This document shows, piece after piece, positions 11,412 through 42,356 of a DNA stretch of 64,000 bases. The DNA comes from Porphyra umbilicalis (Eukaryota > Rhodophyta > Bangiophyceae > Bangiales > Bangiaceae), in contig KV918877.1 in the NCBI GenBank assembly GCA_002049455.2, positions 151,670 to 215,669 of the forward strand. The letters are read 5' to 3'. The notes beneath the pieces are model-generated. The model did not search any database and was not told the DNA's origin. It saw nothing but the letters and a program-made list of their open reading frames with translations. The translations under genes were made by a program, and so were the position numbers. Numbering within the stretch: position 1 is the stretch's first letter; each line of letters starts with the position of its first letter.

Positions 11412-12567
11412 GGCGGAGCAGGTAGGAAGCAAGGGGGGTGGGAGCGAGGAGGGAGGAGGACGACGCGCGGTGCCGGCAAGGAGATGCGCGCGACGCGGGG
11501 GCGGGGACACTGTCGGAAACGTTGGTGGTTGCTATGGCGGCGCATGGGCCGTCGCGGCGCGGGTGCGGCGGCTTAAGAGCGCCGCCGCGGCCGGACGGCC
11601 ACGCCGCCGCCGGTCCTTGATTCGATCGCATTCGCCATCGCGGCCAATGGTGTTGTGCGCCCCGCCTCCGCGTTCCGCCACCAGCCCCCAAAGCGGCGCA
11701 TGCGGAGCACCCACCCAACGCAACCGCTTGCGGCCACGTGCCGAGCCGCCGGCGGTGGGTGCCCCATCCGCCTGTGCGGGGCGCCGGCCGGCGGCAGCGG
11801 CGGCTTGCGACGGCGGTTTGAACTGTTTGGGCGCGGCGCCGGGTGCGCTCCACGCGCCGCCACGCGCAGCGCAACGCCCCGAGGGGCGCACAAGGGTGTC
11901 CTGCGCGGGTACCCAGCTGGTCCCCCCATCCCCATCGTTTCGTCGCGCGGCTTGACACATGCGGGCACGTGCAAGGGGTCGGTTGGTACCACTACAGCCG
12001 GTGGAAGCAAAGACCCTCACGCGAGACCGTCACGCTCCCAAACAAAGCCGGGGGCCCTCCGATATGGAACGGGCATTGACGGGGCGTCCACAACGAGGGC
12101 GCGGCGGGGCCGCATCTTGGCCTGCCGGCGTCGCAGCCCACCTGGCGCAGTGGCGGGAATGGCTGGTGTTCGTCGGTTCCACACAGCACAAGAAGATTCA
12201 TTGGGGTATTTGAATGAGACATGTCCCCAAGTACACGTCTATTCTAAGTTCTCAAGGAGGCCAGTAACTTCACTTGACCCCACCTTCGAGGAGACAAGGA
12301 TCCCGACATGATGAAGAACCACCGTGCACCGTACATGCGAGGATGTACAGCCATAGTAGTGTTTTTTGGCAAGCTTCTTCTGAAGATGGACTCGAACTAT
12401 CCCATGTTTTTTTTCAGCCGGCCTTCAAGGGTCAGATTTATTAGGATTCGCGTTGGCACTATCATTTCTGGATTGATGAGTGTAGAGGGGCTACTATGGT
12501 AGCAATAGACTTATTTTCTGGGTTACCACGAAGTGTACAGAATCAAGTGCGCTGGATTAACACGGTC
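11412..12567. other. No supported gene; left flank of the 15.6-kb transposon
   Basis: GC-rich near the CCT gene, then clearly more AT-rich from about 12.2 kb. No domain seen. Confidence 0.4.
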
Positions 12568-12575
12568 ATTGGAAC

Positions 12576-12594
12576 CAGGCCTCACCAAGAGTAT
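12576..12594 (+). repeat. Left terminal inverted repeat of the 15.6-kb transposon
   Basis: Reads CAGGCCTCACCAAGAGTAT; the partner at 28166-28184 differs at one position. Preceded directly by the duplicated ATTGGAAC. Confidence 0.88.
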
Positions 12595-13776
12595 TTCGGG
12601 AAGGGTATCACTCGAGTATATTTTTCGGGTATATACTCATACTCGCGGGATTTTTCGGTCCTTCCCCAACACTGCGTGGTGGTATGAAATTCACGAGATA
12701 AAGTGAGATCTTTTCTTCCGAAAGAAATAAGGAGGAGTTATTATTCTTCGATCGAAGGCAGCTCTGAGGCGTATCTTCAGGAAAGTTCCTGGAATTGTGT
12801 GAGATAATCTTGAGGATTATCTCTTGAGACGGCTCGATTCGTCCCGCGGATCGTTCTCGGAATTTGTCTGGTGCCATCCTGTGATTACCTTGGGTTTCGA
12901 CGCAAGATGGTCCTGGGATCAGTTCAGGGACTGTTGTCCGGACTGTTTTCCGGACTGTTTCCACGACTGTGTTCCAGTCTGTTTACAAGATAGATTTGCG
13001 GCGTATCTTGGGGTATGGTCTCCTGACCGAACCCCAAGTGAAACCATAGGCACTTTCAAAACACTGGTCCAGGGTTTTATCAGAATCCCATTTAGGCGAC
13101 GTACTCGGAGCAAGAGCACAAGCAACGCATCATTCCTTTCTTGAGAACTGCGCAAGAGCCTGAACCAGAGACGATTGCGACGTCAGACGGTGAGACCATC
13201 TCCAAAATAGACAAAGGACTAGCTCTGTGTACGATGCGAGACACATGCATAGCGATGATTCTGGGAACGTGCGACAGAATATTGCGGCAAATAAAGCCAG
13301 GTATGTCCTCCAAGAAGGTCTTCAATATGGAGGACCACATTATTCCCATGATGGTTCCATGGACCGGCTGAAGAGCTGCTTTTGATTTTCTTCTTGCGAC
13401 GACGCGCGCAACTAGTCCCAAGGACATGTTTCAAGACGATTCCGTAGGTGGGTACGCTGTTTATCTGTCAGATTTACCGACAGGAGGTCCCTCAGTTTTT
13501 CTCGTGGACGGGATGTAAGAAAACATATTGGAGAAAACTGCGGAAAATATATGGAAAAACGACAGGATCCAGCAAATAAATGACAATAATAAAAAGACAA
13601 ATGGACGGTCAAACACAACAAGAACGACAAAGAGAACGTGCGAGACCACCAGTATATGAAGAACGTATTCAGGACGGTATGCACGTCATGCGCACCGGCG
13701 TCAGCATCGAGTCGTGGGCCTTGACAGCACGGTAGACGACAAGGGGTTGACTGCAAGTAGCAGCGGTACGAGCCTC

Positions 13777-14804
13777 CTAGTCTGGTTCTTCATCGGAGAG
13801 ATTGACATCGCCAGCCTTGAGGTCCTGCAACTCATCCCGCATGCACCGGACGACGCCGTTGCGAGCCTCGGTACTCTCCGGGCGCAAAAACTTTGGGTAC
13901 TGTGCAGTATCCACATAGCTCTTCAGACAGGCGGCTCCGGCTGCTCGCACAGAGGTCCACACTTCACTTGAGTCCAGAAACAGAAGCTCAGCAATGATTG
14001 TCGCGGCCGCTCCGTTCAGATCAAGCGCTCGATCGACCTCGTTGTCACCGTCTTTTAGCTTCAGACGGTACCCAAAGACTGTGCTCTCGGCCAGCGCGCC
14101 GCCCGAAGCGACATTTTCTGCGCCCGCACTGAGGACCACGCGTTCCATGGATGCCTCCGGTACATCACTGTCCATGTATACTCCGAGAGTCCGATATGCA
14201 AGCAGTCGAGCAGAGGTGCGTCTTCGGTTGCAGCGAGTGCGTAGACCCTTCTTCAGAGCCATCTTTACAGCACGTCTGTTTCCTGTCCAGCCGTTGGCAG
14301 CGTAATCTATCTGGTTCGCGTACTTCTCGACAGCTTTGGTCATGACTGCACGAAGTGAGCGAGTACAGTCTCTGTTGGGTCCTTCCAGCTGTCCAGGGGG
14401 GGCCAGCCATGAGAGGCAATCGTGTTCGGGCGAGTCCACGGTGCTACCACTTTTCCCAGGGCTCACTGTTCCATTGGAGATCTTCTTTAGCATCGCCTGC
14501 GCGTATCGCGAAAACAGAACACTCAAGTCATCCTGGTTCAGCAAGAGGTGCGACACAGCGGCAGAAAGGCATGAGTACGAGGATGATGCGTACGGGTTAG
14601 ACAGCGTCAGAAAACTCGTACAACCAGTAATAGATCAGGGATCATCCGAGATAGGAACTCGGATAGAAGCCGTGCACGAAACACCACTGATTCAAGCGGG
14701 AAACGTACTCCATGTTCGTTCCAGACGCTCGCGAACAGGGCGCCATTGACAACTGGCGATGGGGAGGGAGCATCAGGAGCATCATCAGCATCGCTGCTGG
14801 GCAT
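13777..14804 (-). CDS. Small accessory protein of the transposon, two exons (unknown function)
   Basis: Proposed model on the minus strand: exon 1 14804-14709 (starts MPSSDADDAPDAPSPSP, ends VWNEHG), intron 14708-14533 with GTACGT donor and AACCAG acceptor, exon 2 14532-13777. The phases match and give 283 residues. The N-terminus is acidic and Pro-rich; the C-terminus has a helical stretch, LDLNGAAATIIAELLFLD then SEVWTSVRAAGAACLKSYVD, and ends acidic (LSDEEPD). The C-terminal pattern (Leu-Asp, Ile-Ile, Trp, Cys-Leu-Lys spacing) faintly recalls BEN-type domains, which is only a suggestion. It lies inside the 15.6-kb transposon, so an accessory DNA-binding or regulatory role for transposition is the natural guess. 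The splice sites are inferred, not proven. Confidence 0.5.
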
Positions 14805-14805
14805 T

Positions 14806-15465
14806 GTATCTGCAACCGTGACCGCGTCTCAATCAACGTCCGTCGCTCCGCAAGCGCATCAGGGAGGCAGTCGAGGTGTGTATCTCCGCACGTGTCACCG
14901 AGTCTCAGTCACTGTGCGCACCGTGCGCTCCGCAAGCGTAGCGAGGTCTCAGGCACAGTGGAGTGATTCCAGGATCAGGTATGGTGGGCGTAGCTATGGG
15001 CGCAGCCCTACAGAGTGACTCGGATCTGCCAAAGAGAAGGCGTACGCTCTCAGTGAGTCGGATATGAGGCGAGCGCATAGCTCCCGAGCACCAGAGCAGG
15101 ATCTCCGTGGGTCAGTGCCCCGCAGAGCTGGACCTCACGACCTCCCTGAGCAGGCGTAGATGCCCTCTCAGAGCCGGATACAGGACATGCGTGGAGCAGC
15201 CTACTGCTCTCCAGCGGGAGATGCGGGGCCCGAAAACCGTAAGTTGACGTATTTGTCGCCGTCGCGTCACGTCATATGCATGTTGCAGTAATCACGTAGA
15301 ACCAGAACCACGTCCTGGTGCGATGAGTCCCTAAACCCTGGTCTAGCAGCCAGTCAGGGTACGCTGAAATGTCGCCGGTGCTGATTACAGTATTGCTGCA
15401 GATCTCTGTCGGCAACGGCGGCGTGTATTTGACTGCATGTGTGATTGCATGTGGTAAATATTTTG
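14806..15465. other. No supported gene within the transposon
   Basis: Contains short reiterated CTCCGCAAGCG segments near 14.85-14.95 kb and no convincing ORF. It may hold the promoter of the minus-strand gene ending at 14804. Confidence 0.35.
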
Positions 15466-15655
15466 CATCGTTTCCCGAGATTGCTCAGTATCCGGTCCAC
15501 CCGTCTGCCACCGACATGTGATCTCACCTGGTGCGCCGCGCCCTCCACGCCGCCGCCAGGCAACAGTGTCCATCGTTTTTCGAGATTGCTCACTATCCGG
15601 CCCACCCAGCCGGGGCCGACGGGTGATCTCACATGGTGTTCCGCGCCCGTCGCGC
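15466..15655 (+). repeat. ~105-bp direct duplication
   Basis: CATCGTTT..CGAGATTGCTCA.TATCCGG.CCACCC starts at 15466 and again at 15571, and both copies continue with GTGATCTCAC and GGTG. Two divergent copies. Confidence 0.6.
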
Positions 15656-16019
15656 AGCCTGCCAGACGTGGGTGTCCGACGTATCCGGTGTGGGGGGGGA
15701 GCGCACAGCCTCTCAGCCGCACGCGCGGCTGTGGCGGCCGTGCCTGGCCGTGGCACGCCGAGAGCACGCGGCCGAGCCTGGTACTGTCCTCCGCCACACT
15801 CGGAGAGCAGCACGTGCGGTCTCGACCACGTATCACCGTCGTCGAGCTCGTGCCATCACTGTACCGTACCTCAGTACGTCTAGTACCCCAGCGACGCATG
15901 TACCGATCCCCTACTCGCTTGGTAATACTGTCCCCCCTCTCTTGATCTCATTCTACTATTGCACACCCTGTTCCCCCCTTTCCTACTTCCCCTTGGCTTT
16001 GTTTTTGGGGGCACGATTG

Positions 16020-17520
16020 AGCTTTGAGGCCCGCTACCCCGCCGGTGGGTGCGGGCCAGACCGCCGCGGAGCGCCCCAACGGGCGATCGCGCTTTGGCGG
16101 AGCCGCGGGCTGTGTCCCTCTCGCGGGGGGCCAACCGCTGGCCTTTTGGAGTGGCCGCCACACCGGGTGGGCGGTCTTCACTGTGCATTATCACTCGTCA
16201 CCCCGCCGGCGGGTGCTTGTGTGAGGGTGTCACCAATCGCCCATTTGGGCGAGCGGGGCTGGCTTGTGCAGCGGGGTGTGTCCCTTTTTCTTGGGCCGAC
16301 CGCTGGCATTTACGAGTCGCCGGCACACCGGGTGGGCCGGCTTGACTTTTCCTTCGAGCTCGTCACCCCGCCGGTGGGTGCGTGCCGAACGCGTCCATAC
16401 TGCCCGCACGGGCGGTTGCGCGTTGCTTGCACCGCGGGCTGTGTCCCTTTTGCTGGGGCCGACCGCTGGATGTTGCGAGTCGCCGGCACACCAGGTGGGC
16501 CGGCTTGACACATTGTTTGCAGCTCGTCACCCCGCCGGTGGGTGCGTGCCGAACACGTGCACACCGCCCAGGAGGGCCGTTGCGCGCTATTGTTACCGCG
16601 GGCTGTGTCCCTTTTTCGTGGGCCAACCGCTGGCTGTTGCTAGTCGCCGGCACACTAGGTGGGCCGGCTTGACGTGTTTTATCGAGCTCGTCACCCCACC
16701 GGTGGGTGCGCGCCGAACTCGTGCACACCGCCCAGGAGGGCCGTTGCGCGCCATTGTTACCGCGGGCTGTGTCCCTTTTTCGTGGGCCAACCGCTGGCTG
16801 TTGCTAGTCGCCGGCACACTAGGTGGGCCGGCTTGACGTGTTTTATCGAGCTCGTCACCCCGCCGGTGGGTGCGCGCCGAACTCGTGCACACCGCCCAGG
16901 AGGGCCGTTGCGCGCTAATATTTCCGCGGGCTGTGTCCTTTTTGCAGGGGCCGACCGCTGGTTGTTGCGAGTCGCCAGCCCACCAGGTGGGCCGGCTCGA
17001 CATATTGTTTGCAGCTCGTCACCCCGCCGGTGGGTGCGTGCCGAACACGTGCACACCGCCCAGGAGGGCCGTTGCGCGCTATTGTTACCGCGGGCTGTGT
17101 CCCTTCTCGTGGGCCAACCGCTGGCTGTTGCAAGTCGCCGGCACACTAGGTGGGCCGGCTTGACGTGTTTTATCGAGCTCGTCACCCCGCCGGTGGGTGC
17201 GCGCCGAACTCGTGCACACCGCCCAGGAGGGCCGTTGCGCGCTAATATTTCCGCGGGCTGGGTCCCTTTTGCAGGGGCCGACCGCTGGTTTTTTTGAGTT
17301 GGCCGCCCCACCGGGTGGGCGGTCCTCACTGTGGAAGCTCTCCCGTCACCCCGAAGGTGGGTACGAGGCAGTCCGCCGCCGATCGCCCGAAAGAGCTGAT
17401 CGTGCTGTGGTGGCGTAGGGGGCTCTGCCCATTACCCTCGACCAACCACCGACGTTTTTATTGACCGCCACTCTGATTCTACTGCGCTTCTTGGCTCGTC
17501 ATCTCGTCGGTGGGTGCAGG
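16020..17520 (+). repeat. 164-bp tandem array upstream of the JmjC gene
   Basis: The anchor CGTCACCCCGCCGGTGGGTG recurs at about 16032, 16196, 16361, 16525, 16689, 16853, 17017, 17180, 17344 and, degenerate, 17497. Spacing is 163-165 bp except for the last (153). Each unit also contains GGGCTGTGTCCCTTTT, GACCGCTGG or AACCGCTGG, and GTGGGCCGGCTTGA. The middle six units are most alike and the outer ones diverge, as expected for an array kept similar by unequal exchange. It ends just before the JmjC start codon, so it may be promoter or 5'-UTR sequence. Confidence 0.88.
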
Positions 17521-17522
17521 CT

Positions 17523-20500
17523 ATGGAGGGGGGTGATGCATCAGAGTCTCTCGGGCCGTTGCCGGGCGAGTTATCTCGCAACCAACGTCGTCAGGTGGCA
17601 CGCGCCCGTCGGCGGGCGGACGCTATGACTGCGGAAGCGGCCCGCGTGGTTGAAGAAGCCGCGCGGGCCGTCGATGCCGTGGATGCTTTTGAACGAGGGG
17701 CGGTGGCGCTGGCTCGAGAAGCCGATCGTAACGCCCACTCGGCCCCCGCGATTCCGGACGGCAGCATACTTGGAAGCAGACGCGGTGGCGACCGTGGCCG
17801 TCGTCGTGGCCGTGGCAGCGGGACAGGACGCGGCGGTGGCGAGGGCCAGCCGATTCGCCGTGTTGAGCCCTCCCACGTGCCAGACCATTGCAATGGCAGC
17901 GGATCGCCGCTCGGCCCGGTGGCAGACAGTGCCTCCATATCTGTAAGGGGTCTCCAGCTCGCGCGTGGAAAGAGTGTACGTGGTCGGCCGGGGGCGACGC
18001 AACAGACTACAGCGTATGGCCATGGCAGTCGGGTGACCCAGCGCACACATGCTATGGCACGTGGGGCGGTGCATGTGGTCGACGGGGCCCAGTCTGCGCC
18101 CGACATGATCGCGGTCGTCAACGATGCGCGGCGTGTATTGGCTGGTCGTGTAGGCGGGCTGACAGCTACGCAGATGCGGATGCTTTTGTCGGCCCTGGAA
18201 CTCGCCGGGCCGTGGTACTTGCCCAGCCCCAGCCGGCTGCAAGTTTTGAGCCAGTGCCGTGGCGGCTGTGGCGACGTCGAAGCGATTGATTCGCTATTGG
18301 CTTCAGCTGTAAGGATCTTACACGAAGACGTCGACGGTGTGCCGAGTTGTGGCGACACTGCAGCAGCAGGCTTCCTCGTCCAGCAAGCCTTGGCGTCCCA
18401 CGGATGCAAGGGCCAATGCTCTGCCGTGGCCCACCGTGCCCCGCCCTCTGTCCACCCTTTCGCGACGCCTGCTGCTCCTGTGCCGGCCCCACGTCCCTCC
18501 AACACGCCGATCGCGCCGCGTGCCAAGGCTGTGGCCGACCTGAGCGCACGTAGACGGCCACTCTTACGCCAAGCCCCACCTCCTCCTAAGCGCTTTTGTC
18601 TAAAGGCCAGTCGCGATGGCGACCCCCCGTCGACGGCCACTGTCACGACCTTTGCACCCCCGCCGCCGCATGGGCCTCAAGTGCTGCCACGCGCCTCTAG
18701 CGCAGGCGCACCCTCGAGGACACGCTCTGTGCCCGTTTGTCCGGTGCCCTCCGCATCGAGTCTCCCAGTGCCACCACGATTTCTTTTCCCGGTCCGCGCC
18801 GAGCGGCACGTACAACTGTCGGCAACGGACTTGGCGTCCTTGGAAGAGGGCATGGAAATGTCCAAGCACATGATGGACGGCCTCCTATTGTGGTTCCTCT
18901 ACTGGGCGAGAAGCAGCGGTGTTATCGGTGGCCTGCGCGTGCTCTCTGCACTGGACGGCGAGGACGTTAAGGACGCCTCGACGGACGACGTCTTGATCGT
19001 GAACAGGGCTGCCAGCGTCTTGCTCAACCGCCTTGTGTTCAGCGGCGGTACGGTCGTCATGCCGGTTTACAGTGGACGGGGTTGGTCGGGGGTGGTTATT
19101 CGAGGCTTAGACAAGGTTGTGCCGTCGGTTGTTCAGGCCGTGCTCGACGGCGAAGCCGAGCCCGTTCACGGGGCCGCCGTGGTGCTCATCAACACATACG
19201 CGGGGAATGGAGGCGCGGAGGTTGACTTTGAGGTGTTGAACGGCCTCTTCTGCTCCTTGACCGCAGCCATTTGCCAGACCCGCCTGCGCAGCAAGGACTG
19301 CATTGGGATGCGAATGCGTGTGAATGGATGCTTGAGGACTCGATTGCCGGTGCGCCGTGTGGGGACCCCGGCCGGAGAGATGGCGGACACGGCCGATAAC
19401 CTGCTGGCGTACTTTTCTCTTCTCCACTCTGCTGAGCCCGCAGCAGCAGCGTGCCTTTTGCGCGCCGACGATGGCCCGCAATGGCGCAAGGCCCATTCTC
19501 CTCGGCGCCTGCGTGGCCTAATCCGCCGCATTGTTGAAGCGCACCGCCCTGGTGGCAAGGTCTGGCATGAGCAAGAACCAGCCGCGGAGCTTTTGAACGG
19601 GTGCGACCTGTCCGAAGACGAGGCCTCTGACAGCGGGGACTGCATGAAGGACGTAACAGACGACGAAGACGCTGGCGCAGGTGGCAGCGCGCGCGATGGC
19701 GGCGGCGATGGCGGCGGCGGCAGCGATGGCGGCGGCGGTGGCGGCTCCATTCCCGGTCGAGCGGGCGATCGTGGCGCTCGAGGGAGCGAAGACGAAGACA
19801 GAGCCGACGGCCGTGACAAAGAAGATGAGGTTGAGAGCCGAGCTCGGCAAGTTTTCGGACGCGAGCACGGCCGACGCCGTGATCGTGGAGATGTTGTTGA
19901 TGAGTTACATGAGCGTGCAGGTCGTGATGCCGATGGCCGTGATGGAGGAGACGGCCGCGTTGACGGCGCCCGTGTCGACGCCGTCGTGCACGGCGATGTC
20001 CAAGTTGCCGCACGCGCCCACGGCCAACGCCGTGATCGTGGAGCTGTTGATGATGTGTTACATGTGCGTGCAGGTCGTAATGCCGATGGCCGTGATGGAG
20101 GAGACGGCCGCACTGGCGGCGCCCGTGTAGACGCCGCCGTGCACGGCGATGTCCAAGTCGCCGCACGCGCCCACGGCCAACGCCGTGATCGTGGAGCTGT
20201 TGATGATGTGTTACATGAGCGTGCAGGTCGTGATGCCGATGGCCGTGATGGAGGAGACGGCCGCGTTGACGGCGCCCGTGTCGACGCCGTCGTGCACGGC
20301 GATGTCCAAGTTGCCGCACGCGCCCACGGCCAACGCCGTGATCGTGGAGCTGTTGATGATGTGTTACATGTGCGTGCAGGTCGTAATGCCGATGGCCGTG
20401 ATGGAGGAGACGGCCGCACTGGCGGCGCCCGTGTAGACGCCGCCGTGCACGGCGATGTCCAAGTCGCCGCACGCGCCCACGGCCGACGCCGTGTTCGTGC

Positions 20501-23246
20501 AGCTGTTGTTGATGAGTCACATGTTCCTGCAGGCACCCGTGTGGACGCTACCAGCAGCGCCGGCGACGGCGAACGAGATGTTGCGGCCGTGGACGGCGAT
20601 GGACGAGTTGGTGCACGCGCGCAGGACCGACGCCGTGCTGGTGGAGTTGTCGTTGATGGCTATCATGTGAAGCGACGTCACGATGCCGACACCCGTGTTG
20701 GAGTAGAAGGCCGCGATGTCGGAGCCCGTGCTGACGCCGCCGTCGACAGCGATGGAGACCTCGCAACACGCACGCACGACCGACGCCGTGATGGTGGAGT
20801 TGCTGTTGATGGTGTTCATGTGCATCGAGAACAAGACGCCGCCGCCCGTGATGGCGTAGGTGGCGGCGCCGTCGACACCCGTGTCGACGCCGCCGCGCAC
20901 GGCGATCGACACGTTGTCGCTCGCCCACGCGATCGACACCATCATGACGGAGCTGCTGGAGACGCGCGACATGTGGCCACCGACGCTGCAGCTGCCGACG
21001 ATCAGGACGATGATGGCGGTAGCGGTTGTGATGTGGGAGGTGGTCAACTTGGGGGTGATTTGTCTCTGTTTAGTGGAGTCTCTGCCTCGCGCCATGACGA
21101 TCCGTTATCCAGCTTGGACGCGGAGGACCTCAGGTTTATTTCAGAGGCCCTCTCCTCTACATGCTTCAGAGGCAAACCTGGACGCTCCGGGTCGTCGTAC
21201 GTACCGTATATCGAGAGGGCAATGCAGCTCGGGCCTGTGTCCGACAACGCTACGACGAAAAAACACTGCCCAGACCACGTCAAAGGTGCCCCAGAGGTCA
21301 GCCGCCGCCGTGAAACCACGGCCGAGCGCCGAGAAGGTGCTATCAAGCACGATGTTGATGCTGCCAGAGAAGTACATGCCCCCTCAACCCGCGGCTCACA
21401 TGCCAATGAGGCGCGTGGCCCGGCAGCAGCACATCACGACGAAGGGCAGGCGTCTGCCCAGGCGGTTGGGTCCTCGTCACGACATGTCATGCAGTTCCAC
21501 TCAGCACCTGTTACCGAATTGACATCGGTTCCTGAATTCGGAATGCACGGTCTGATTCGATCAAAGATTGCGTCGATTCGGACATTTGGTGCTCACGTTT
21601 TCCGAGTAGTAGCCCCCGAGAGGCGTCCTCCGTCCAGTCGCATGCCCAAGCGACATACCGGGGATAAGCTCAGGGTGCGCGTTCAGACCTTCCCACAATA
21701 CCCGACCATTGTGAGTGACGCATTCTTTGGCAGGCCTGCGGCCGACTCTAGTGTGAAACGCAAAGAGTTGAGGGCTCAGCTGCCGTCAGAACAGGAAAAG
21801 CGGTTGTCTGCTACGGAACTCAACCGAAAGGTCAGCGAGAGCGCAGCTTACCTTCGAGCCGAGTACAAAGACTTTGGTGTGAAACGCTTCCTCAGCAGTG
21901 TGAATGATCCGAGCGTCACATGGGTGCAACAGGTGACCGCTGCTCGGAACGAGAAGATGGTGATGGGCGGTGAGCCAAGACCAATCGATGTGTACTATCT
22001 TTCAGATATGTCACCTCGAAACGAGGATGGGTGCAGCAGGAGCCTTGGCGACCCTTCCTGTACCGCCATAGCGGCTCCTGTTCCTCCTCGTGAGCGCTTT
22101 GAGAATCCACGCACTCTAAACCACCACACCATGCTCGGTGCCGCGTCTACGTACGAAGGGATCAACACCAACCTGCTTTACGCTGGGACCAGAGGGTCCC
22201 ACTTCAGCTGGCACGTGGAGGACAGTCTGCTGCAGTCCTCATCGTACTTGCAGAAGGGCTCAAATAAGTTTTGGTTTTTTATTCCTGCCCCCGAACGTCC
22301 GCGAGCCGAGCGCGTCATGCGAGAACACATGGACCCCGCTGTACTGGCAGCGGCTGGAGGGGATGTATGGGAGGTACTCGCCGTGAAAGCGTGCCTTTGG
22401 CCTGCGACTCTGTTTCTAGCGCATGGCGTTCGCGTGGGGTTCCACACGATGGAGACTGGGGACTTTGTTGTAACGGGGTATGGAGTACTGCACAGTGGTT
22501 TCAACGGGGGACCAAACATAGCCTCTGCGGTGAACCTGGCATGCACGGGTTGGCTCTCCTATGCGATAGAACATGCCGCACACTGGCGTACGAAGCTCAC
22601 AATCCACATCCCTTTCGAAAAGTTGCTGGTGTTTGCCGCTCAGAAGCTAGCCGACGGGGAGTGGTGGTGCGGCGATGCAAAGACCTATGAAGCGTGGGAG
22701 CCAGCAGAGTTCCGACGAGATGTCGCCGTGATGGTGTCGTACTTAGAAGAGTACCTCAACAGTGTTGTTACCTTCATGGAAGTGGACTCTCAGCAAGGCT
22801 GGGGAGGCAAAAAGCCCACTGCTGTGGCCCTTGGAAGCACATCACGAGCTGTTCAGCGGTTTGTCGTCGAAAATGCGATCCAGCCGGAGGGTGAGCCCTT
22901 AGTGCTCCCAAACGAGATGGAGGGAACTGCTACAGACTACTCTGTTGACGGCGCTTCATGCCCTCACTGTGGTGTGGTCACATGGATTTCTGCGGTTGTC
23001 TGCCCGGCGTGCATTGAGCAGCTCGGTGATGATGCGGTTCCTAACGCGCCACTGTGCTGCTGGCGGTGTGCACCTGTCATGTTCGATGCAGAGCACGATC
23101 GGCTCCGCCAGGGTCTTCCGACTTCTAAGGACCTGGCCGGATGCCATGCTCCTGTGCTGGTGCAGCGGCTGTCCAACAGCAGCGTGTACCTGTTGGTGGA
23201 CAAGCTGAAGGTGCTCGGGGGGGGGGGGCGGAAGGGTGCCTCTTGA
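17523..23246 (+). CDS. JmjN/JmjC-domain histone-demethylase-like protein with zinc finger, transposon cargo
   Basis: One uninterrupted frame of 1907 codons from ATG 17523, the first ATG after the tandem array. Residues 1-~330 are basic/Ala-rich then Pro-rich and likely disordered; ~430-700 is a globular region of unknown family; ~720-1150 is low-complexity, including 51-residue repeats rich in Arg, Gly, Asp and His. From ~1337 a JmjN-like segment (LIRSKIASIRTFGAHVFRVV) precedes a JmjC domain at ~1545-1680. The Fe(II) triad is visible: H1564 and E1566 in FSWHVED, and H1657 in VLHSGFNGG. The 2-oxoglutarate lysine equivalent is in NKFWFFIP. The KDM4 Asn of the YL block is Ser here. A CPHC...CPAC...CCWRC zinc finger at ~1812-1850 recalls the C5HC2 finger after JmjC in KDM5/plant JMJ proteins. 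The predicted activity is nuclear histone-lysine demethylation; the substrate is unknown. It converges with the transposase 245 bp downstream. Confidence 0.85.
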   Translation: MEGGDASESLGPLPGELSRNQRRQVARARRRADAMTAEAARVVEEAARAVDAVDAFERGAVALAREADRNAHSAPAIPDGSILGSRRGGDRGRRRGRGSGTGRGGGEGQPIRRVEPSHVPDHCNGSGSPLGPVADSASISVRGLQLARGKSVRGRPGATQQTTAYGHGSRVTQRTHAMARGAVHVVDGAQSAPDMIAVVNDARRVLAGRVGGLTATQMRMLLSALELAGPWYLPSPSRLQVLSQCRGGCGDVEAIDSLLASAVRILHEDVDGVPSCGDTAAAGFLVQQALASHGCKGQCSAVAHRAPPSVHPFATPAAPVPAPRPSNTPIAPRAKAVADLSARRRPLLRQAPPPPKRFCLKASRDGDPPSTATVTTFAPPPPHGPQVLPRASSAGAPSRTRSVPVCPVPSASSLPVPPRFLFPVRAERHVQLSATDLASLEEGMEMSKHMMDGLLLWFLYWARSSGVIGGLRVLSALDGEDVKDASTDDVLIVNRAASVLLNRLVFSGGTVVMPVYSGRGWSGVVIRGLDKVVPSVVQAVLDGEAEPVHGAAVVLINTYAGNGGAEVDFEVLNGLFCSLTAAICQTRLRSKDCIGMRMRVNGCLRTRLPVRRVGTPAGEMADTADNLLAYFSLLHSAEPAAAACLLRADDGPQWRKAHSPRRLRGLIRRIVEAHRPGGKVWHEQEPAAELLNGCDLSEDEASDSGDCMKDVTDDEDAGAGGSARDGGGDGGGGSDGGGGGGSIPGRAGDRGARGSEDEDRADGRDKEDEVESRARQVFGREHGRRRDRGDVVDELHERAGRDADGRDGGDGRVDGARVDAVVHGDVQVAARAHGQRRDRGAVDDVLHVRAGRNADGRDGGDGRTGGARVDAAVHGDVQVAARAHGQRRDRGAVDDVLHERAGRDADGRDGGDGRVDGARVDAVVHGDVQVAARAHGQRRDRGAVDDVLHVRAGRNADGRDGGDGRTGGARVDAAVHGDVQVAARAHGRRRVRAAVVDESHVPAGTRVDATSSAGDGERDVAAVDGDGRVGARAQDRRRAGGVVVDGYHVKRRHDADTRVGVEGRDVGARADAAVDSDGDLATRTHDRRRDGGVAVDGVHVHREQDAAARDGVGGGAVDTRVDAAAHGDRHVVARPRDRHHHDGAAGDARHVATDAAAADDQDDDGGSGCDVGGGQLGGDLSLFSGVSASRHDDPLSSLDAEDLRFISEALSSTCFRGKPGRSGSSYVPYIERAMQLGPVSDNATTKKHCPDHVKGAPEVSRRRETTAERREGAIKHDVDAAREVHAPSTRGSHANEARGPAAAHHDEGQASAQAVGSSSRHVMQFHSAPVTELTSVPEFGMHGLIRSKIASIRTFGAHVFRVVAPERRPPSSRMPKRHTGDKLRVRVQTFPQYPTIVSDAFFGRPAADSSVKRKELRAQLPSEQEKRLSATELNRKVSESAAYLRAEYKDFGVKRFLSSVNDPSVTWVQQVTAARNEKMVMGGEPRPIDVYYLSDMSPRNEDGCSRSLGDPSCTAIAAPVPPRERFENPRTLNHHTMLGAASTYEGINTNLLYAGTRGSHFSWHVEDSLLQSSSYLQKGSNKFWFFIPAPERPRAERVMREHMDPAVLAAAGGDVWEVLAVKACLWPATLFLAHGVRVGFHTMETGDFVVTGYGVLHSGFNGGPNIASAVNLACTGWLSYAIEHAAHWRTKLTIHIPFEKLLVFAAQKLADGEWWCGDAKTYEAWEPAEFRRDVAVMVSYLEEYLNSVVTFMEVDSQQGWGGKKPTAVALGSTSRAVQRFVVENAIQPEGEPLVLPNEMEGTATDYSVDGASCPHCGVVTWISAVVCPACIEQLGDDAVPNAPLCCWRCAPVMFDAEHDRLRQGLPTSKDLAGCHAPVLVQRLSNSSVYLLVDKLKVLGGGGRKGAS
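19870..20530 (+). repeat. In-frame 153-bp repeats with 306-bp higher-order unit (inside the JmjC gene)
   Basis: GTCGTRATGCCGATGGCC starts at 19921, 20074, 20227 and 20380, exactly 153 bp (51 codons) apart. Copies 1 and 3 share GTGATG and GTGTCGACGCCGTCG, copies 2 and 4 share GTAATG and GTGTAGACGCCGCCG. This shows a recent 306-bp duplication. More divergent units continue to about 20.98 kb. Confidence 0.9.
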
Positions 23247-23491
23247 ATAAGACATGTTTCTGGTTACCACTGATTTTCTTTTGTTTGATAGTCTCCGGGT
23301 CCTGAGCTCTTACTTCCGACGTTCCCGGTGGGGCGTGGAGGTTTGTGCGCTTTTTTCATCTACCTTTTCGTGTGATACTGCCTTGACAATATTGCTCGTT
23401 TTGCTGGGTGAGGTGATACATCCAGAGAACACAATATTCTCTTTCACTCAGCCCCATCCTAGCGCAGCCGCATTGGCAAAAACGCCCCCAG

Positions 23492-26478
23492 TCATCCACT
23501 CTTGAAGTGGAAGCCAGATCTCTTGGTGAACATCACGTTGTGCTGCCCGCAGGGCAGAACGAAGGCAAGTTGTCTCACATGGTCAGCTGGTATCAAAGAC
23601 AATCCAGCTTCAGTGTCGATTGTGACTTCAGCGGGCTGTCCCAAGACGCTGAATGCCATCGCTGGTATCTTCCAGGTCTCACAGGCGACATGGAGCTCGC
23701 CATCGATTGTTCCAATGGACTGCACACGGACAAAGCGCAATTCTCTGCTATCCAACAGATCGGAGCCGGACTCGTGTTCGGGGGTGGCTCCGTTCTTATG
23801 CAGAGACACTGTGGACCCTTCTCGGAGGACAGACGGTCGATGCGCTTGCGTGGCTTGACGCCAGAATGCCAGAGTTGCGTTGGGCGCACGACTTCGCCAG
23901 AACTCCTCCGTGGATCCCAGAACCGTACGCGCGGCTGTTCGTGGACGCCAGCGCATGTTGGTGGACAGTGATTGTCGTTTGTGAGGACCGAGGCTATGAA
24001 AAGTGACAGACTTCAGTGGCTGGCCTTCTTGACCAAGAAGCCACGAAGCAGGAATCCCATGTGCGCCGGGCATGGAAAGAACCCGTGAGTACTGCTCTGT
24101 GTCTCTCCACCTTTGCATGGAGTACTCAGCGGGGTTCCGACTGTTACTCTGGCTCACCTCCCGCTTCGAATGTTGGTGGAACTTCTCGAAAATGAGCTCA
24201 CATATCGCTGACCCCAGCTGCGCAAGTGGGGGGTGCGATATAACAGTTCCAGTACACGATGTACGGACGGTCTCTCCCAACTGCCGTTAAAGGGTAATAG
24301 TCGACGCAGCTCAATCATGAGGCTCTCGCCCATAACTTGGAGCTCAGCGACGGTCGGCCGCTCTCTCATGGCCTTCTCCCCGTCCGAAGAGAGTGTTGGC
24401 ACATAGAACAGTGCCGTGGAAAACCGTCGCAGGGCCTTGAGACCTCTGAGAGCAGCACGTGCGTGAGGTGACGTGGCCGTGCTGTGCACAAGGTACTGTA
24501 TGACAGTGGGACCTACTGTGATCAGCACTGCATAGTCTGACATTGACAGAGTTGTGCCACCCATTTTTTCTGGCTCGAATGAGGACAGGATCGTGTGTGT
24601 CGGAACATGCTTCGCACTTCGGCGCATTTCCCGCATGAACTTGTCTCGCTGCTCAACTGAGAGCGCCTCGTACGCTTCCATCAGGAGGTGTGAGCCGATG
24701 TTGTAGTATAGTAGATGTGAAGGAGCAACTATGACGTGCTCGTGTATGTCAAACGTCTCAGGTCCCCGGGCCTCGGTCAGGCGCATCATTAGACTGCCTG
24801 TCTTGTCCGTAATGCCATTCAAGAGGAGTGCGTCCTTCACTGCGTCTGTCGATAGTCCCGGTTTGTTCTTTATGACAGACATGATGAGAGAAGTTCGCTC
24901 TTGCGTTCTTGAGTACCGTGAGTCCTTCACGTTGAAAGATACCGTGCTGCTCATCGCTCTCTCCTTCCTTTCTGTGTGTGTTTTTGTTTGCACAATGTCG
25001 CAGCTTGTGCAGTGCTCTGTGCCTGGGGCGCCTATTGAGTTGGAGAACTTGGCGGCCATGGGGAAATCAAATACACCGAGGCACAGGTACACCCGAATGA
25101 CAACACTCTCCTTTTTGAAGGCGTCATAGACAGCCAAGCCCTCCTTACCTGCTATTATCAAGTCGTCGACGATTTTTTTGAGCAGGGCATCCGGGCTTGC
25201 TCCTGGGGGGAGGTAAAAGAGAGGACGGACAGAATACGCACGATCCTGCAAGCACAGCGATGTGTAACCCCCGTAGTAGCCCTCCAGGCTTCCGCGGCGA
25301 CGCTTATGCACATTGAACTCGTCGCCGTACAGCGACACGTACAGCACATATGGGTCCTTCTCGGAAAGGTTGTCTTCGCAGGGCTGAGGCACATGTGACA
25401 GCTCTAAGGGGCTGGTGGCAGTCAAAGCTGACCATGAATTCTTTTCATGCTCGGTGGACTCCCGTACGGCGATAACAAACACGCCACCGGACCGCGTGAA
25501 GCGTAGCGTAACACGGCGCTCTTCCGTGAAACAGGACGCCCAGCGCTCTGGCGGCATAAACCCGGGGAGCGCCTCAAACAGCGCGAGTGAGTCACCTACC
25601 CGCAACGTGCGTTCAGGAGCATACGTGGACGCCGATATGGTTACGCATCCGTCAGGCGCCATGGAGGTGCTTAACAAGCGGGCCTCGAACACGGTCGCTT
25701 CATCAAAAGAGATCTTGGCGGTGCATCCAATGTCAAAGCTGTGTTCGTCTCGGAAGAAGACCCTGTTCACATTAAACCTGGCGGGGTCCCTGGCCGCCAC
25801 TGTTTGAAAGAACTCGGCCGGTCGCTCGACAGTGCCCATTCGAGAGTCCCCTTTGTTGTGGAACAGTGCTGCTGTTACAGGATCCGCAAAGTCCCTCTTT
25901 ATGTGCTCAGAAAACGTAATGTACGACACTTCCACGTTCGGCAGTTTACGCATGGCTTTCCCTTTTCCAACAGGTAGCTGGCGTGTTGTCGTCTCCCGTC
26001 GTAGGGGTATTGCAGACTTCAACATGTGCTCGCGCAGTTTTCGCAAGCGCCACCGCGACGGCCATTTTTCTGTCGGATCAAAGGAGTTTTCTGCCTCTCG
26101 CATAATGTCGTACTGCCTCAGCGTGACGCGCGCTCTGCCGTACAGGTAACCGAAGCACACGAACTCGCGACGTGATACAAAGCCCCCACGATCGCGGTCC
26201 CCCTCGAAGGAGAATTCCGAGTCATCTGAGGGACACCCGTCACGCCCAGAGTCGGAGGATAGAGCAACGTCCTCATAGTCTCCCACAGAATGCGCTGGTG
26301 CCTCCCTGGTGCCTGAATCATCTGGGGTTTGGTTTGCGACGCTGCTTTCAGGATCCTCCAAGCCGCCAGTACGGGCAGCCGAGCCTGATGACGCTTGCTG
26401 CTCTTCCATGTGCAATAGGTTCCCATCATTGAGATGAAAGAAGGCAGCACCTCGCGGGCCACGCCGGCGACGCTTCAT
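23492..26478 (-). CDS. Tnp2/KDZ-type transposase, two exons
   Basis: Proposed model: exon 1 26478-24282, intron 24281-24208 (GT...AG, 74 nt), exon 2 24207-23492; phases match and give 970 residues. The start is the first ATG (KRRRRGPRG follows, a possible nuclear signal); the frame upstream opens only from GTG. Seen motifs: YVSLYGDEFNVHK (candidate catalytic D386), VDDLIIAGKEGLAVYDAF and GAPGTEHCTSCD (C490, C493), an arrangement shared by Tnp2/CACTA and KDZ-like transposases. They are followed by FDIHEHVIVAPSHLLY. The intron joins LLPFNG to ICELIFEKFHQHSKRE (~734-749), a conserved E-L..E..HQ..KR block. The C-terminus has RFVRVQSIGT and SLIPADHVRQLAFVLP. A relic with homologous blocks lies at 49752-51153. 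The family level is my judgement; the exact superfamily needs a profile search. Confidence 0.72.
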
Positions 26479-28165
26479 GTCTTCTTTTGTGCCGTGGTCG
26501 TACACTGCGGAATAACACGTTCTGTAAGAGCACGGGCAGTCACCCAAGTTTAGTGGTAGTGACACACACTAGACGTCAGTCCAGGGAGAGGCCTTTTGTG
26601 TACACGGATAGTCAAGCATAAGACGGTCAAACTCAAGAACGCAACCACAGAGGGAAAGCAGAACAAAGAGATCCTCATATAGAGACGGTACACAGTGCGA
26701 CGCGAGGAGAGGTGACACCACGAGCTGGGCATATGCACGGAGCGGGGGCAGTACGATAACAGCAGCGTACAAGGACAAGGTTGCAGGAGAAACGGTGGAG
26801 GAGGGCGGTGCAGAGGCAATGCACCACGCCGAGGCTCTCCCGAGACTCAGGTGCGTGCGCCAGAGACGAGCGACGTTCCGGTAGTCAGATCTGTACGTTT
26901 TGCGTCGTTCCCGGTTGCAAGACCCTCCAAGATCAACCGCACTTGGGCGACAAAGCGACGTGTCCACTTGTGCAACTGCTCCTGCCATGGGCTAGTCCGT
27001 TGCCTGGTTCTCAGTTTGATCCTGACGACTATCTGGGGGACTGTTCCTGAAGATTCCGCAGATGATCCTCACGATGATCTTCAGGATAGACTAGACGGGA
27101 GCACTGGAAGAGCTCGCAGGATAGAGTGCTGATTAATTCCATGTCTCGCCCCACATCGGGTTTGGGATCGCCTCAGGACGATCCTTCGGAATAACTGACA
27201 GACGGTCCTGAGCCAATCTGTGGATCAATACAGTACGATCTTAGAAACGCGTCGAACCAACCTCGAGAATCGATGTGGCTGTATGGGAAACCCGATCCTC
27301 AGTCTTATCCCGTGGATTTCTCGATTTTGCGGCTAGGATTAAATAAGGACGAGCATCCGTCTCGCTGTGAATACCCATACTCGGTGAATGAGCAGTGGTC
27401 AGATACCCGCGAAACCTGACGTCCAAGGGTATCAAGAGTGTTACTCGTACTCTCGATTCTGGATAATTCGACACTTTTGACGGTGAATTGACCGGATACT
27501 CCCACATCAAATCGATGCCTGGCAATCTGAGCAGAGGCAGAGCGTGCGATTCGGGCCAACATCACGCATCTGCATGCGTGCGAAGCGAGTGACAGCCCAC
27601 CATCCACCCTCTTGCGCTCTTAGGCGTTCGTCATCCTTCTCTGCTCTCCCCGTTCCTCCGCCCCGATCTTCATCCTCGCCCACCACGCGGCGCGGCGGCG
27701 GTCACCTTCCCAACCCTCCCGTTCGTCTCGCCTTTCGCGAGCCTCTCGCTCGCTCCTTGCACTTCCACCGAGAGTTCCAATCGGTCCTTGGGGTGGACGC
27801 ATTCGACAGGGCCTGTAGCCCTGATCGCCGCCCGGTCGGACCCAGTGACAATGCTCGTTCGGGCCGAGGAGCCAACGGAGGTCCGGCACCACGACGACAT
27901 CAGCCGCTTAACGAATAAATTGGTATCAAAACTACAAAGTTAGCTGCACGAAGGAGGTATGCATTCCTGTGAAAGGTATACGCATACCCGCGCCTCGGAA
28001 CGACATCGAATACCGACGTCCCAAAACTTCAAGGGTATGTACTCTTGATACCCGCTCTGTCAGGTTTGAGCGATACTCATACTCGGACGTCTAAAATCCG
28101 GCCCACTGTCAGCCAATACTCGGTGGCTGGATCCGAGCCACATACCGTACTCGTGGCTGAAACTG

Positions 28166-28184
28166 ATACCCTTGGTGAGGCCTG
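28166..28184 (-). repeat. Right terminal inverted repeat of the 15.6-kb transposon
   Basis: Reverse complement reads CAGGCCTCACCAAGGGTAT; followed directly by the second ATTGGAAC at 28185-28192. Confidence 0.88.
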
Positions 28185-28449
28185 ATTGGAACCCAAGGGC
28201 GCATGACAGTTGGCGCTCTGTCCGTTTCTTCGACTGAAGGTGTTGGTGGGGGCGAGCCGGGGAGCATGCGTGGGGTGGTGGAGCTGGCTGTCGCTGCCGC
28301 CGGCTCGAGGGGGGGCGGAGGTCCTATTGTTGTCACATCCCAGTGAGCGTGGCGGTCTGCGGCGAGAGAGAAAGTACTTTCTAGAGACAAGAGAGAGAAA
28401 GGAAACAGAACGAGAACAGCGAGAGAAAGGCAAAGAAGAGGTGGGGGGA

Positions 28450-40704: not shown

Positions 40705-42351
40705 ATGTCTACTGGTGGTACCGGCGGCACTCGGCGAGCCAGAGACGGCAGGTTGCCATCTGGCTACCGGCCGCCGGGCGGGGGACAAGGCACTCCTGCC
40801 GCCTCCGCCGCCCCCACGGACGGTGCTCCAACTCCTCCCATCCCTGCGGATCAAGCCGCCTCTGGGCAGATGCAGGTGGTGGAGAGCCTGAAGGCGGCCG
40901 TTGAAGCACTTCAGCGACGCCTAACGGCCCAAGAACAGACTAACGAGTCTCTGGCGCGAGCCACTGACAAGTTGGTCGACGACGTCGAGGCCCTGCGCAA
41001 GGTTGACTCCCATGAGGAGGAACGCCGTGTGGCTAAGTCTCGCCGCCAGTCGGGCGACAAGACCAAGGACGTCAAGAAGACGAGCAAGGTGATTAAGGAC
41101 AAGTCCGTCCGCAAGGACGCTCCGGCTAACGCCGCGCTTTCCTCATCTTCCGACGATTCCGCTTCTGGGTCAAGCCCGACGTCGTCAGACGACGACAACC
41201 CCGACGCGACGGACACGTCCTCTTCGGACGATGGCCACGGGCCCCCACACCCGCCGTCGCCCCCAAGTGGGTCCTCGCCGAGCGACAGCTCGAGCGAGTC
41301 GGACGCGGCCGCGCGCAAGCGCCCCACGCCCCCCACCAAACGGAAGGAGCGACTTGAAAAAGCCGATAGGATCAAGGTGATCCGCCCGGCTAATAGCCGC
41401 TTCAAGGCACTCCTGGACTACAGGACGTACTTCCTGATCCGCCGTCAACTGATGTATACGCCTAAAGAGGCACAGCGGTCGCACCGTCTCAACAAACGCT
41501 TGGACGGAGCGTTTCATGGGCAACAGCCATTCACGGGAGGCCTGCCCTTGGGCATCTTCACGTTCCTGACGACCTTTCGCCGCGCATGCGACGCGGCTGG
41601 GCTGACGCATGGTCAAGCCCTTCCGCTTATGGTCTTTCGACTAGCCGGCAACGCCAAGATGGCCTTCTCCTGCGCGCTGAACAGCACCCTCGGACGTAAG
41701 CGTTACGCCATCCGTACCTACGGAGATGCCGTCAACTGGCTTCTTTCGAAGTATGCGCCACACGCAACCATGGCTAACGCCTATCAACACATCATTACGA
41801 TGAAGCAAAAAGACAACGAGGCGCCCACGGCCTTTGGTCATCGCTTGGAAACGCAATGCGACCTCCTGAACGGTTTGTTCGACATCCAAGACGTTAAGGA
41901 CGTCTTCATCACTGGTCTTTCGGACCTTGTGCAAGCGCACGTCCGGGTACTGAACGACCAGTTCCCCGACCGAACCCTGTCCGAGACGGTCGCCACCGCA
42001 CAGATGGACTGGGACGGCACCAACAAGTTGCGTTTGCAACTCAAGATTACCCGCCCAACGGCGATCAAAGTCGCTTGCGCGACACAAGACCAGCGGACGA
42101 CGACGGAACGACCGTTCACACCGGTTCGCACCCCGCCGCCCCCTCGGGCCGCCGTCCCTCAAGCCAATCGGGCTGACATCTGTTACAACTGTAACAAGCC
42201 GGGGAACTTCGCCGCACAGTGTGCCGAGCCTTATCGCCCTCGTGAGCGTCGGCAACCGCCTATCGGCGTTCATGCCCTTACCGACGGTAACGTCGAGGAA
42301 GACGAAGTCGAGCATCCGGCCGACGCCGTGGACGACTCGAAAAACGTCTAG
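40705..42351 (+). CDS. gag: Gag polyprotein
   Basis: 548 codons from ATG 40705. Residues ~50-105 are a predicted coiled coil (VVESLKAAVEALQRRLTAQE). Then come a Lys-rich and a Ser/Asp-rich linker, and a retrotransposon-gag (capsid-like) domain at ~225-450, with FRLAGNAKMAF and YQHIITMKQKDNEAPTAFGH typical of the Ty3 family. A single nucleocapsid knuckle starts at C493: CYNCNKPGNFAAQC. The expected His of the CCHC knuckle is Asn, so the zinc site is altered. The stop at 42349-42351 is followed by pol in the -1 frame. Gag would assemble the virus-like particle that packages the RNA. Confidence 0.92.
   Translation: MSTGGTGGTRRARDGRLPSGYRPPGGGQGTPAASAAPTDGAPTPPIPADQAASGQMQVVESLKAAVEALQRRLTAQEQTNESLARATDKLVDDVEALRKVDSHEEERRVAKSRRQSGDKTKDVKKTSKVIKDKSVRKDAPANAALSSSSDDSASGSSPTSSDDDNPDATDTSSSDDGHGPPHPPSPPSGSSPSDSSSESDAAARKRPTPPTKRKERLEKADRIKVIRPANSRFKALLDYRTYFLIRRQLMYTPKEAQRSHRLNKRLDGAFHGQQPFTGGLPLGIFTFLTTFRRACDAAGLTHGQALPLMVFRLAGNAKMAFSCALNSTLGRKRYAIRTYGDAVNWLLSKYAPHATMANAYQHIITMKQKDNEAPTAFGHRLETQCDLLNGLFDIQDVKDVFITGLSDLVQAHVRVLNDQFPDRTLSETVATAQMDWDGTNKLRLQLKITRPTAIKVACATQDQRTTTERPFTPVRTPPPPRAAVPQANRADICYNCNKPGNFAAQCAEPYRPRERRQPPIGVHALTDGNVEEDEVEHPADAVDDSKNV
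42340..42351 (+). promoter_or_regulatory. Candidate -1 frameshift site before the gag stop
   Basis: In the gag frame the codons are AAA AAC GTC TAG; with the preceding base the heptamer is GAAAAAC, one base from the classical A AAA AAC slippery site. Pol lies in the -1 frame and is open across this point. No downstream pseudoknot was assessed. Confidence 0.4.
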
Positions 42352-42356
42352 GCCGG

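Follow-up and report, generated by a model that had tools for sequence, protein, structure and literature searches.

A CACTA/EnSpm-like transposon lineage of a probable red alga pairs its transposase with a JmjC gene of the histone demethylase type

A gene-bearing transposon nested in a smaller element

The window analysed here, a stretch of 64,000 nucleotides of genomic DNA, contains a 14,700-bp DNA transposon that carries two convergent genes, one for a Tnp2-like transposase and one, on the opposite strand, for a long protein with a JmjC domain of the histone demethylase type (Table 1). An earlier note, made from the window's sequence, had proposed that such a gene travels with a DNA-transposon transposase, and many genomic copies with the same gene order bear this out. 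That note had also described 19-bp terminal inverted repeats (TIRs) with one mismatch and an exact 8-bp target duplication. Both are present: the left repeat, CAGGCCTCACCAAGAGTAT, lies at 12576 with an inverted counterpart at 28184, and the pair is flanked on both sides by the duplication ATTGGAAC. However, they are not the ends of the gene-bearing element. The sequences that they enclose on either side of the insert are contiguous elsewhere in the genome, where they form a 907-bp element without insert. Ten distinct other full-length copies of this element, 97.7-98.8% identical, were found at the loci read, and the 8-bp duplication is exact in 6/10 of them, agrees at 7 of 8 bp in three and is absent from one; partial copies occur at two further loci (L042 and L059). 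A search of the genome with positions 27370-28184 gave at least 43 matches, 40 of 118 candidates having been scored; 16 matches cover the full length, and the window's own is among these. This outer element has CAGGCCTCACCAAG ends, with GATACCC/ATACTCG-like motifs close to both.

The borders of the inner, gene-bearing element were taken from the points at which similarity among its genomic copies starts and ends. On the left side (query 12560-13400), 10/10 other long matches start at 12667-12670, at CACTGCGTGG, while four of five shorter, diverged matches (72-73%) start at 12668-12669 and the fifth at 12656; a separate set of matches is confined to 12565-12672. On the right side, the end could be placed by DNA similarity in 15 of 24 other transposase loci, each time at 27369, with ...TGTG or ...CGTG before unrelated flank. 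Among the remaining nine, similarity is lost earlier in L012 (27284), L015 runs into the edge of its locus, and divergence is too high in the other seven. The element has CACTG...CTGTG ends, sister copies have ends of the same kind, and its junction within the outer element shows a 2-bp duplication, AA. A matching 2-bp duplication was found in all six inner copies with both ends read, the window's included (AA, AT, AG, GA, GT and TA), the pair of the C80 copy presupposing a second copy nested inside the first. Because empty 907-bp copies exist and the inner copies have borders and duplications of their own, the 14,700-bp element is inserted into a 0.9-kb non-autonomous element, and both genes belong to the inner one. 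Both genes lie inside the new pair of ends, and the copies that the earlier note expected do share one gene order and carry their own duplications where both ends were read, of 2 bp and not of 8 bp.

Pairing, co-inheritance and selection

A search with the transposase across the genome (83.8 Mb, 665 contigs) gave 61 matches, or 58 after three second pieces had been dropped, which is a lower bound (58 of 294 candidates scored). A convergent JmjC domain lies at most 5 kb downstream in 53 of these 58, at a distance of 1.6-1.95 kb in 48 pairs and of 2.3-3.1 kb in the other five. The best 25 transposase loci were read, the window's own among them, and in 24/24 of the others the C-terminal JmjC part adjoins the transposase. 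Two of these loci, L018 (C16) and L019 (C391), share their flanking sequence and are perhaps one insertion seen twice; with such flanks, allelic or duplicated assembly stretches are possible, and copy counts are therefore not all counts of independent insertions.

The JmjC family PF02373 has 105 matches in the genome, host genes included, and 87 of them are free of internal stops. Fifty-two have no listed transposase; five of these were read (C263, C30, C344, C212 and C173), and for two, C212 and C173, the transposase side was read as well. Transposase sequence is present in both, 46% identical to the window's over residues 2-749 in C212 and a C-terminal remnant with 27% identity in C173, so the pairing is older than the count of 53/58 shows.

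The two proteins are co-inherited. Across the 25 loci, transposase and JmjC distances are correlated with r = 0.947, a value reached by 0 of 10,000 permutations, and r is still 0.859 when just the 245 between-subfamily pairs (transposase distance >0.05) are taken. Between subfamilies, seven comparisons per gene gave ratios of nonsynonymous to synonymous substitutions (dN/dS) of 0.09-0.15 for the transposase and of 0.13-0.27 for the JmjC gene, where some comparisons cover no more than the C-terminal part, and both genes are under purifying selection at this level. In the three most distant JmjC pairs dS is saturated.

A first homologue search with the full-length JmjC protein as query found nothing; public protein collections hold 19 relatives of the element JmjC and 17 of the transposase. 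Two of these proteins, P0007 and P0024, come from source contigs of equal size (12,285), probably one contig with both genes. A tree of the JmjC core was computed from seven element-type JmjCs of the genome, five metagenome proteins chosen from the 19, three unpaired host-like JmjCs (C344, C263 and C30) and known demethylases. The 12 element-type JmjCs form one clade (support 100/99), and a branch with support 96/97 places the C344 JmjC on the element side and C263, C30, KDM4D, KDM5A, JMJ14 and JMJ13 on the other. Both the tree and the distances would fit a gene that was captured once from a host-type demethylase and then passed on vertically. The unpaired JmjC at C344:4000-5900 (L063) has a C-terminal Cys-rich stretch like that of the elements and could be a capture source or a domesticated copy.

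The transposase

The window transposase is a weak match to Tnp2 (PF02992; E=1.2e-6, 28.3 bits, just below the cut-off of 28.6), and PF02992 is found in 16/17 aligned relatives (alignment A2) at E<=0.1, the best at 3.1e-8. Pfam scans of the window protein and the 17 aligned transposases found no KDZ family, for which Pfam includes a model; thus the first half of the label "Tnp2/KDZ-type" given in the earlier note stands and the second falls. A profile search of the PDB with the transposase profile gave no match. In the numbering of the relative P0003, D386 (16/16), C490 (17/17), C493 (16/17) and E765 (9/9) are conserved, D452 (17/17) and D471 (15/17) are candidates for the second catalytic Asp, and the HxxxxH at 624-629 is not retained in all relatives. 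By its sequence the enzyme is a Tnp2 transposase, CACTA/EnSpm-like and not KDZ, since CAC..GTG ends, a 2-bp duplication and the Tnp2 domain fit the passages that describe this group in Kojima (2025; PMC12730594).

The window copy had been called complete, which does not hold, as its transposase frame is broken near codon 755 and continues in another frame (23495-24229), the last Glu included. An open frame of 986-1070 residues, with no stop inside the match, is retained in 21 of the 58 genomic matches. A short stretch elsewhere in the window, 50461-50712, matches the C-terminal region of this transposase at 32-34% identity and is a relic of some more distant relative.

The JmjC protein

The reading frame of 1907 codons on the strand opposite to the transposase had been noticed for its iron and 2-oxoglutarate ligands, and both the domain match and the residues confirm this: Y1553, H1564, E1566, D1567, K1582 and H1657 are kept, with the motif WHVED and the later His. 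The Tyr, both His and the Glu are invariant among the 12 rows of alignment A3 and the Lys is present in 11, while PF02373 was found in 14/14 members of alignment A1. The window's contig has no JmjC match other than that of the element. The Pfam scan gave no TET/JBP match, the oxygenase being a PF02373 JmjC. The Cys-rich stretch that follows the core is conserved, with weak zinc-ribbon matches below the Pfam cut-off and none above; in demethylases of the KDM4/KDM5/JMJ13 type the C-terminal zinc finger is of the C5HC2 or C4HCHC kind.

The best solved relative is JMJ13 of Arabidopsis (6.1e-18 by single sequence, 9.2e-26 by profile), and similarity to PDB entries is confined to the JmjC core of about 170 residues. 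The 56 single-sequence matches are lysine demethylases of the KDM4, KDM5, JMJ13 or JMJ14 kind, or related chains whose names read 2-oxoglutarate oxygenase, Rph1 or a rice protein. With the profile, JARID2 also appears, at the low end of the ranking; this protein is not known to be active as a demethylase. JMJ13 is described, in the passages on it in PMC6428840, as an H3K27me3-specific demethylase (that is, specific for trimethylated lysine 27 of histone H3) in which Asp296 contacts H3S28. The counterpart of Asp296, judged from the construct numbering, should be the D of WHVED.

Other features

The inner element further holds an array of repeats and a third reading frame (Table 1), for which dN/dS ratios range from 0 to 2, the copies being too alike for selection to be read.

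Table 1. Features of the nested elements, of the rest of the window and, in the last row, of the wider genome. Positions are those of the window unless a contig or locus is given.
Feature	Position	Strand	Basis or content
Outer element, non-autonomous, 0.9 kb, left piece	12576..12669	.	TIR CAGGCCTCACCAAG; similarity to other copies
Outer element, right piece	27370..28184	.	Similarity to other copies
8-bp target duplication ATTGGAAC of outer element, left	12568..12575	.	Sequence read
8-bp target duplication ATTGGAAC of outer element, right	28185..28192	.	Sequence read
Gene-bearing transposon, 14,700 bp	12670..27369	.	CACTGCGTGG... / ...GTCTCGCTGTG; start and end of similarity among genomic copies
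2-bp target duplication AA of inner element, left	12668..12669	.	Sequence read
2-bp target duplication AA of inner element, right	27370..27371	.	Sequence read
JmjC protein ORF (open reading frame), 1907 codons; long N-terminal part without known domain, catalytic part C-terminal	17523..23246	+	ORF, Pfam
JmjC domain, residues 1552-1671 (H1564, E1566, K1582, H1657)	22176..22535	+	PF02373 E=2e-14; PDB KDM4/KDM5/JMJ13 matches
C-terminal Cys-rich stretch CxxC..CxxC..CWRC, residues 1813-1849, zinc-finger-like	22959..23069	+	Resembles that of element copies and of the contig C344 JmjC
Transposase ORF, N-terminal 774 codons, Tnp2-like	24154..26478	-	PF02992
ORF with C-terminal transposase part in another frame	23492..24118	-	tblastn, P0003 751-992 to 24229-23495
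ORF of 238 codons without known domain	13777..14493	-	No stop in the aligned part of 9/9 near copies
Repeat array, unit about 164 bp, immediately before the JmjC ORF	16018..17521	.	Lies within the inner element
Retrotransposon	40705-46088		Gag-like, reverse transcriptase, RNase H and integrase domains
hAT-type transposase ORF	54032-56122		DUF659, hAT dimerisation, BED finger
E(z)-like examples	C71:275213-275311; L074-L079; C117:4556-4654 (window's contig, outside the window)		CXC domain matches

The host genome and its chromatin

The earlier note had drawn its comparison from fungi. The genome has 10 matches to chlorophyll-binding proteins, 12 to phycobilisome linkers (4 on contig C665) and 11 to phycobiliproteins (10 on C665, which looks like a plastid contig), and most likely belongs to a red alga. 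Chitin synthase gave no match, in a search that matched no control genome either. Likewise, no C5 DNA methyltransferase was matched, in a search that hit 10/14 control genomes, all 10 of them prokaryotic, and that could miss an intron-split gene. Because no such methyltransferase was detected, a TET-type eraser would have no target in this genome.

Putative writers of histone methylation are abundant in the form of a divergent family of E(z)-like CXC-SET proteins, whose CXC domain has 76 matches, 30 of them in open frames of >=900 residues. Six copies were read; one, on C71, has CXC and SET domains by Pfam and EZH2 as its best PDB match, and the five others align to it over CXC and SET with 40-98% identity. 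This is far beyond the expected number of Polycomb genes, and the copies perhaps belong to another mobile element with a histone methyltransferase. In the red alga Cyanidioschyzon, as summarised in part of PMC13353863 (citing Hisanaga 2023), H3K27me3 is found mainly on repeats and transposable elements, which become expressed when E(z) is knocked out; an earlier paper describes the mark both on genes and on repetitive elements (PMC5405695). Given the abundance of E(z)-like proteins, the lack of a detected C5 DNA methyltransferase and the Cyanidioschyzon data, H3K27me3 would be the likeliest mark for the element's enzyme to remove.

A possible role for the JmjC protein and its alternatives

The explanation that we favour, with a probability of roughly 0.6, is that positions 12670-27369 are one copy of a multi-copy CACTA/EnSpm-like lineage whose JmjC gene was captured once, has been selected together with the transposase and removes a repressive histone methyl mark. 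The transposase would cut and paste the element, in line with its CAC...GTG ends and 2-bp duplication, and the JmjC gene would have been acquired once from a host-type demethylase and then inherited and kept by selection alongside it. Acting as a 2-oxoglutarate oxygenase, the JmjC protein may strip a repressive methyl mark, possibly H3K27me3, from histones of the element or its vicinity, which would allow the transposase to be expressed or to reach the element ends. A wider picture is more tentative and, on balance, doubtful: a transposon lineage that lives by its own histone-mark eraser (perhaps of H3K27me3), in a red alga that silences by histone and not by DNA methylation, set against multiplied E(z)-like writers of the host or of another mobile element.

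Several observations weigh against these proposals. Concerning the enzyme, Pfam found no JmjN domain upstream of the JmjC domain at E<=10 (weak matches filtered) nor in 14 family members at E<=1, a resemblance being visible by eye only, and no C5HC2 finger in the element JmjCs. The Asn of KDM4A that helps to bind 2-oxoglutarate is a Ser in the element JmjCs, and the cofactor Lys is replaced by Gln in one divergent copy, C212. Phe179 and Asp236 of JMJ13 fall outside the aligned part, so a preference for H3K27 is not readable from the alignment, and JmjC proteins may also be hydroxylases of other proteins. Concerning pairing and descent, 5/58 transposase matches are without a JmjC partner and 18/105 JmjC matches contain internal stops. 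The dN/dS ratios between subfamilies are rough, with dS near saturation in most pairs (proportion of synonymous differences, pS, 0.59-0.72), and those among near-identical copies (0.3-1.1) are too noisy to read. In the tree, the program flags the C344 JmjC as a long branch of unsure position, this JmjC is taken for a host gene by assumption, and just three unpaired host-like JmjCs are included.

Some of these points lend themselves to another explanation, in which the protein helps the transposon as a hydroxylase or as a chromatin reader, for target choice, transposase control or expression, without histone demethylation. Non-demethylases exist among JmjC enzymes, the replaced Asn and the unmatched JmjN and C5HC2 would suit such a role, and so would the very long N-terminal part without known domain. 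However, the solved structures that match are lysine demethylases or related chains, and WHVED with the later His is retained, so we regard this role as rather unlikely, if the most serious of the rivals. It is improbable that the JmjC gene is a mere passenger, a host gene caught once, amplified along and useless to the transposon. Transposons, Helitrons for example, commonly capture pieces of host genes, but a passenger would need dN/dS near 1 between subfamilies, where the JmjC values are well below 1, and the pair persists in near-identical copies as well as in ones whose transposases are no more than 46% identical, with correlated distances of both proteins and most JmjC matches stop-free. 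A lone host gene that happens to lie beside a transposon is ruled out by the 53 paired matches.

Two further explanations concern the nature of the element itself. Remnants of an endogenous giant virus with a KDM4-like gene would have a precedent in Amoebidium, where, in the section of PMC11244446 on these insertions, KDM4-like JmjC genes are reported from 39% of giant-virus insertions. Here the partner is a Tnp2 transposase within defined ends and 2-bp duplications, and no viral hallmark domain was seen in the 19 window ORFs scanned, no genome-wide search for viral genes having been made; a viral origin is very improbable. A single KDZ transposon of 15.6 kb, with the CAGGCCT repeats as its ends inside the 8-bp duplication, would account for matching TIRs and an exact duplication at 12576/28184, but not for empty 0.9-kb copies with 8-bp duplications of their own, nor for inner copies that start at 12667-12670 and stop at 27369, nor for the AA duplication at the nested junction, and Pfam gives no KDZ match. 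With separate genomic copies of both elements it is rejected, and its probability is close to nil.

Comparison with known systems

Among the best-ranked matches in the open-licence literature, no transposon with a JmjC or histone-demethylase gene was found; subscription papers and Repbase lay outside this scope, and the novelty of the pairing is provisional. The word "JmjC" does not occur in the text of Kojima 2025 (PMC12730594). As an enzyme, the element protein resembles JMJ13/JMJ14 and KDM4/KDM5 in its JmjC core (HxE...H), its cofactor Lys and its C-terminal Cys-rich stretch, and differs from them in lacking a JmjN or C5HC2 match, in its very long N-terminal part and in being encoded by a transposon. 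The endogenised giant viruses of Amoebidium are likewise genome parasites with a eukaryotic JmjC demethylase gene, to go by the part of PMC11244446 that deals with them. There, however, the carrier is a virus and the gene has several exons and occurs in 39% of insertions, whereas here the carrier is a transposon and a JmjC gene lies beside 53/58 transposase matches.

With CACTA/EnSpm and the wider CMCT group, as characterised in the relevant passages of PMC12730594, the element shares the Tnp2 domain, in a weak PF02992 match, and CAC..GTG (CA..TG) ends, and its 2-bp target duplication (6/6) falls within the 2-5 bp of that group. CMCT transposases are described with a DDE triad whose second D and E enclose C(2)C and H(3-4)H; here C490 and C493 would answer to C(2)C, and HxxxxH is not kept throughout. 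The descriptions of CMCT in those passages mention no JmjC gene. KDZ elements are said there to make duplications of 7 bp (Kyakuja) or 8 bp (Zisupton), unlike the 2 bp of the gene-bearing element, the 8-bp duplication at this locus being that of the outer element.

The closest parallel is offered by the fungal DNA transposons with TET/JBP genes, which include Kyakuja, Dileera, Zisupton, Plavaka, EnSpm, ESTA and others and for which escape from silencing has been proposed as the use of these genes (Kojima 2025, PMC12730594, in the sections on these elements). According to the same sections, they too encode their own 2-oxoglutarate/Fe oxygenase beside the transposase and occur in many copies, and some are EnSpm/CMCT elements with CAC..GTG ends, as here. 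The fungal enzymes act on 5-methylcytosine, whereas the one described here is a JmjC protein of histone-demethylase type, and the genome that holds it showed no C5 DNA methyltransferase. If our explanation is right, the lineage would be the histone counterpart of the fungal TET-carrying transposons, and the same eraser strategy would have arisen in a distant lineage against histone-based silencing. The genome provides a natural set of diverged JmjC enzymes in its 105 matches, host genes among them, and a direct test becomes possible of whether chromatin erasers are encoded by mobile elements themselves.

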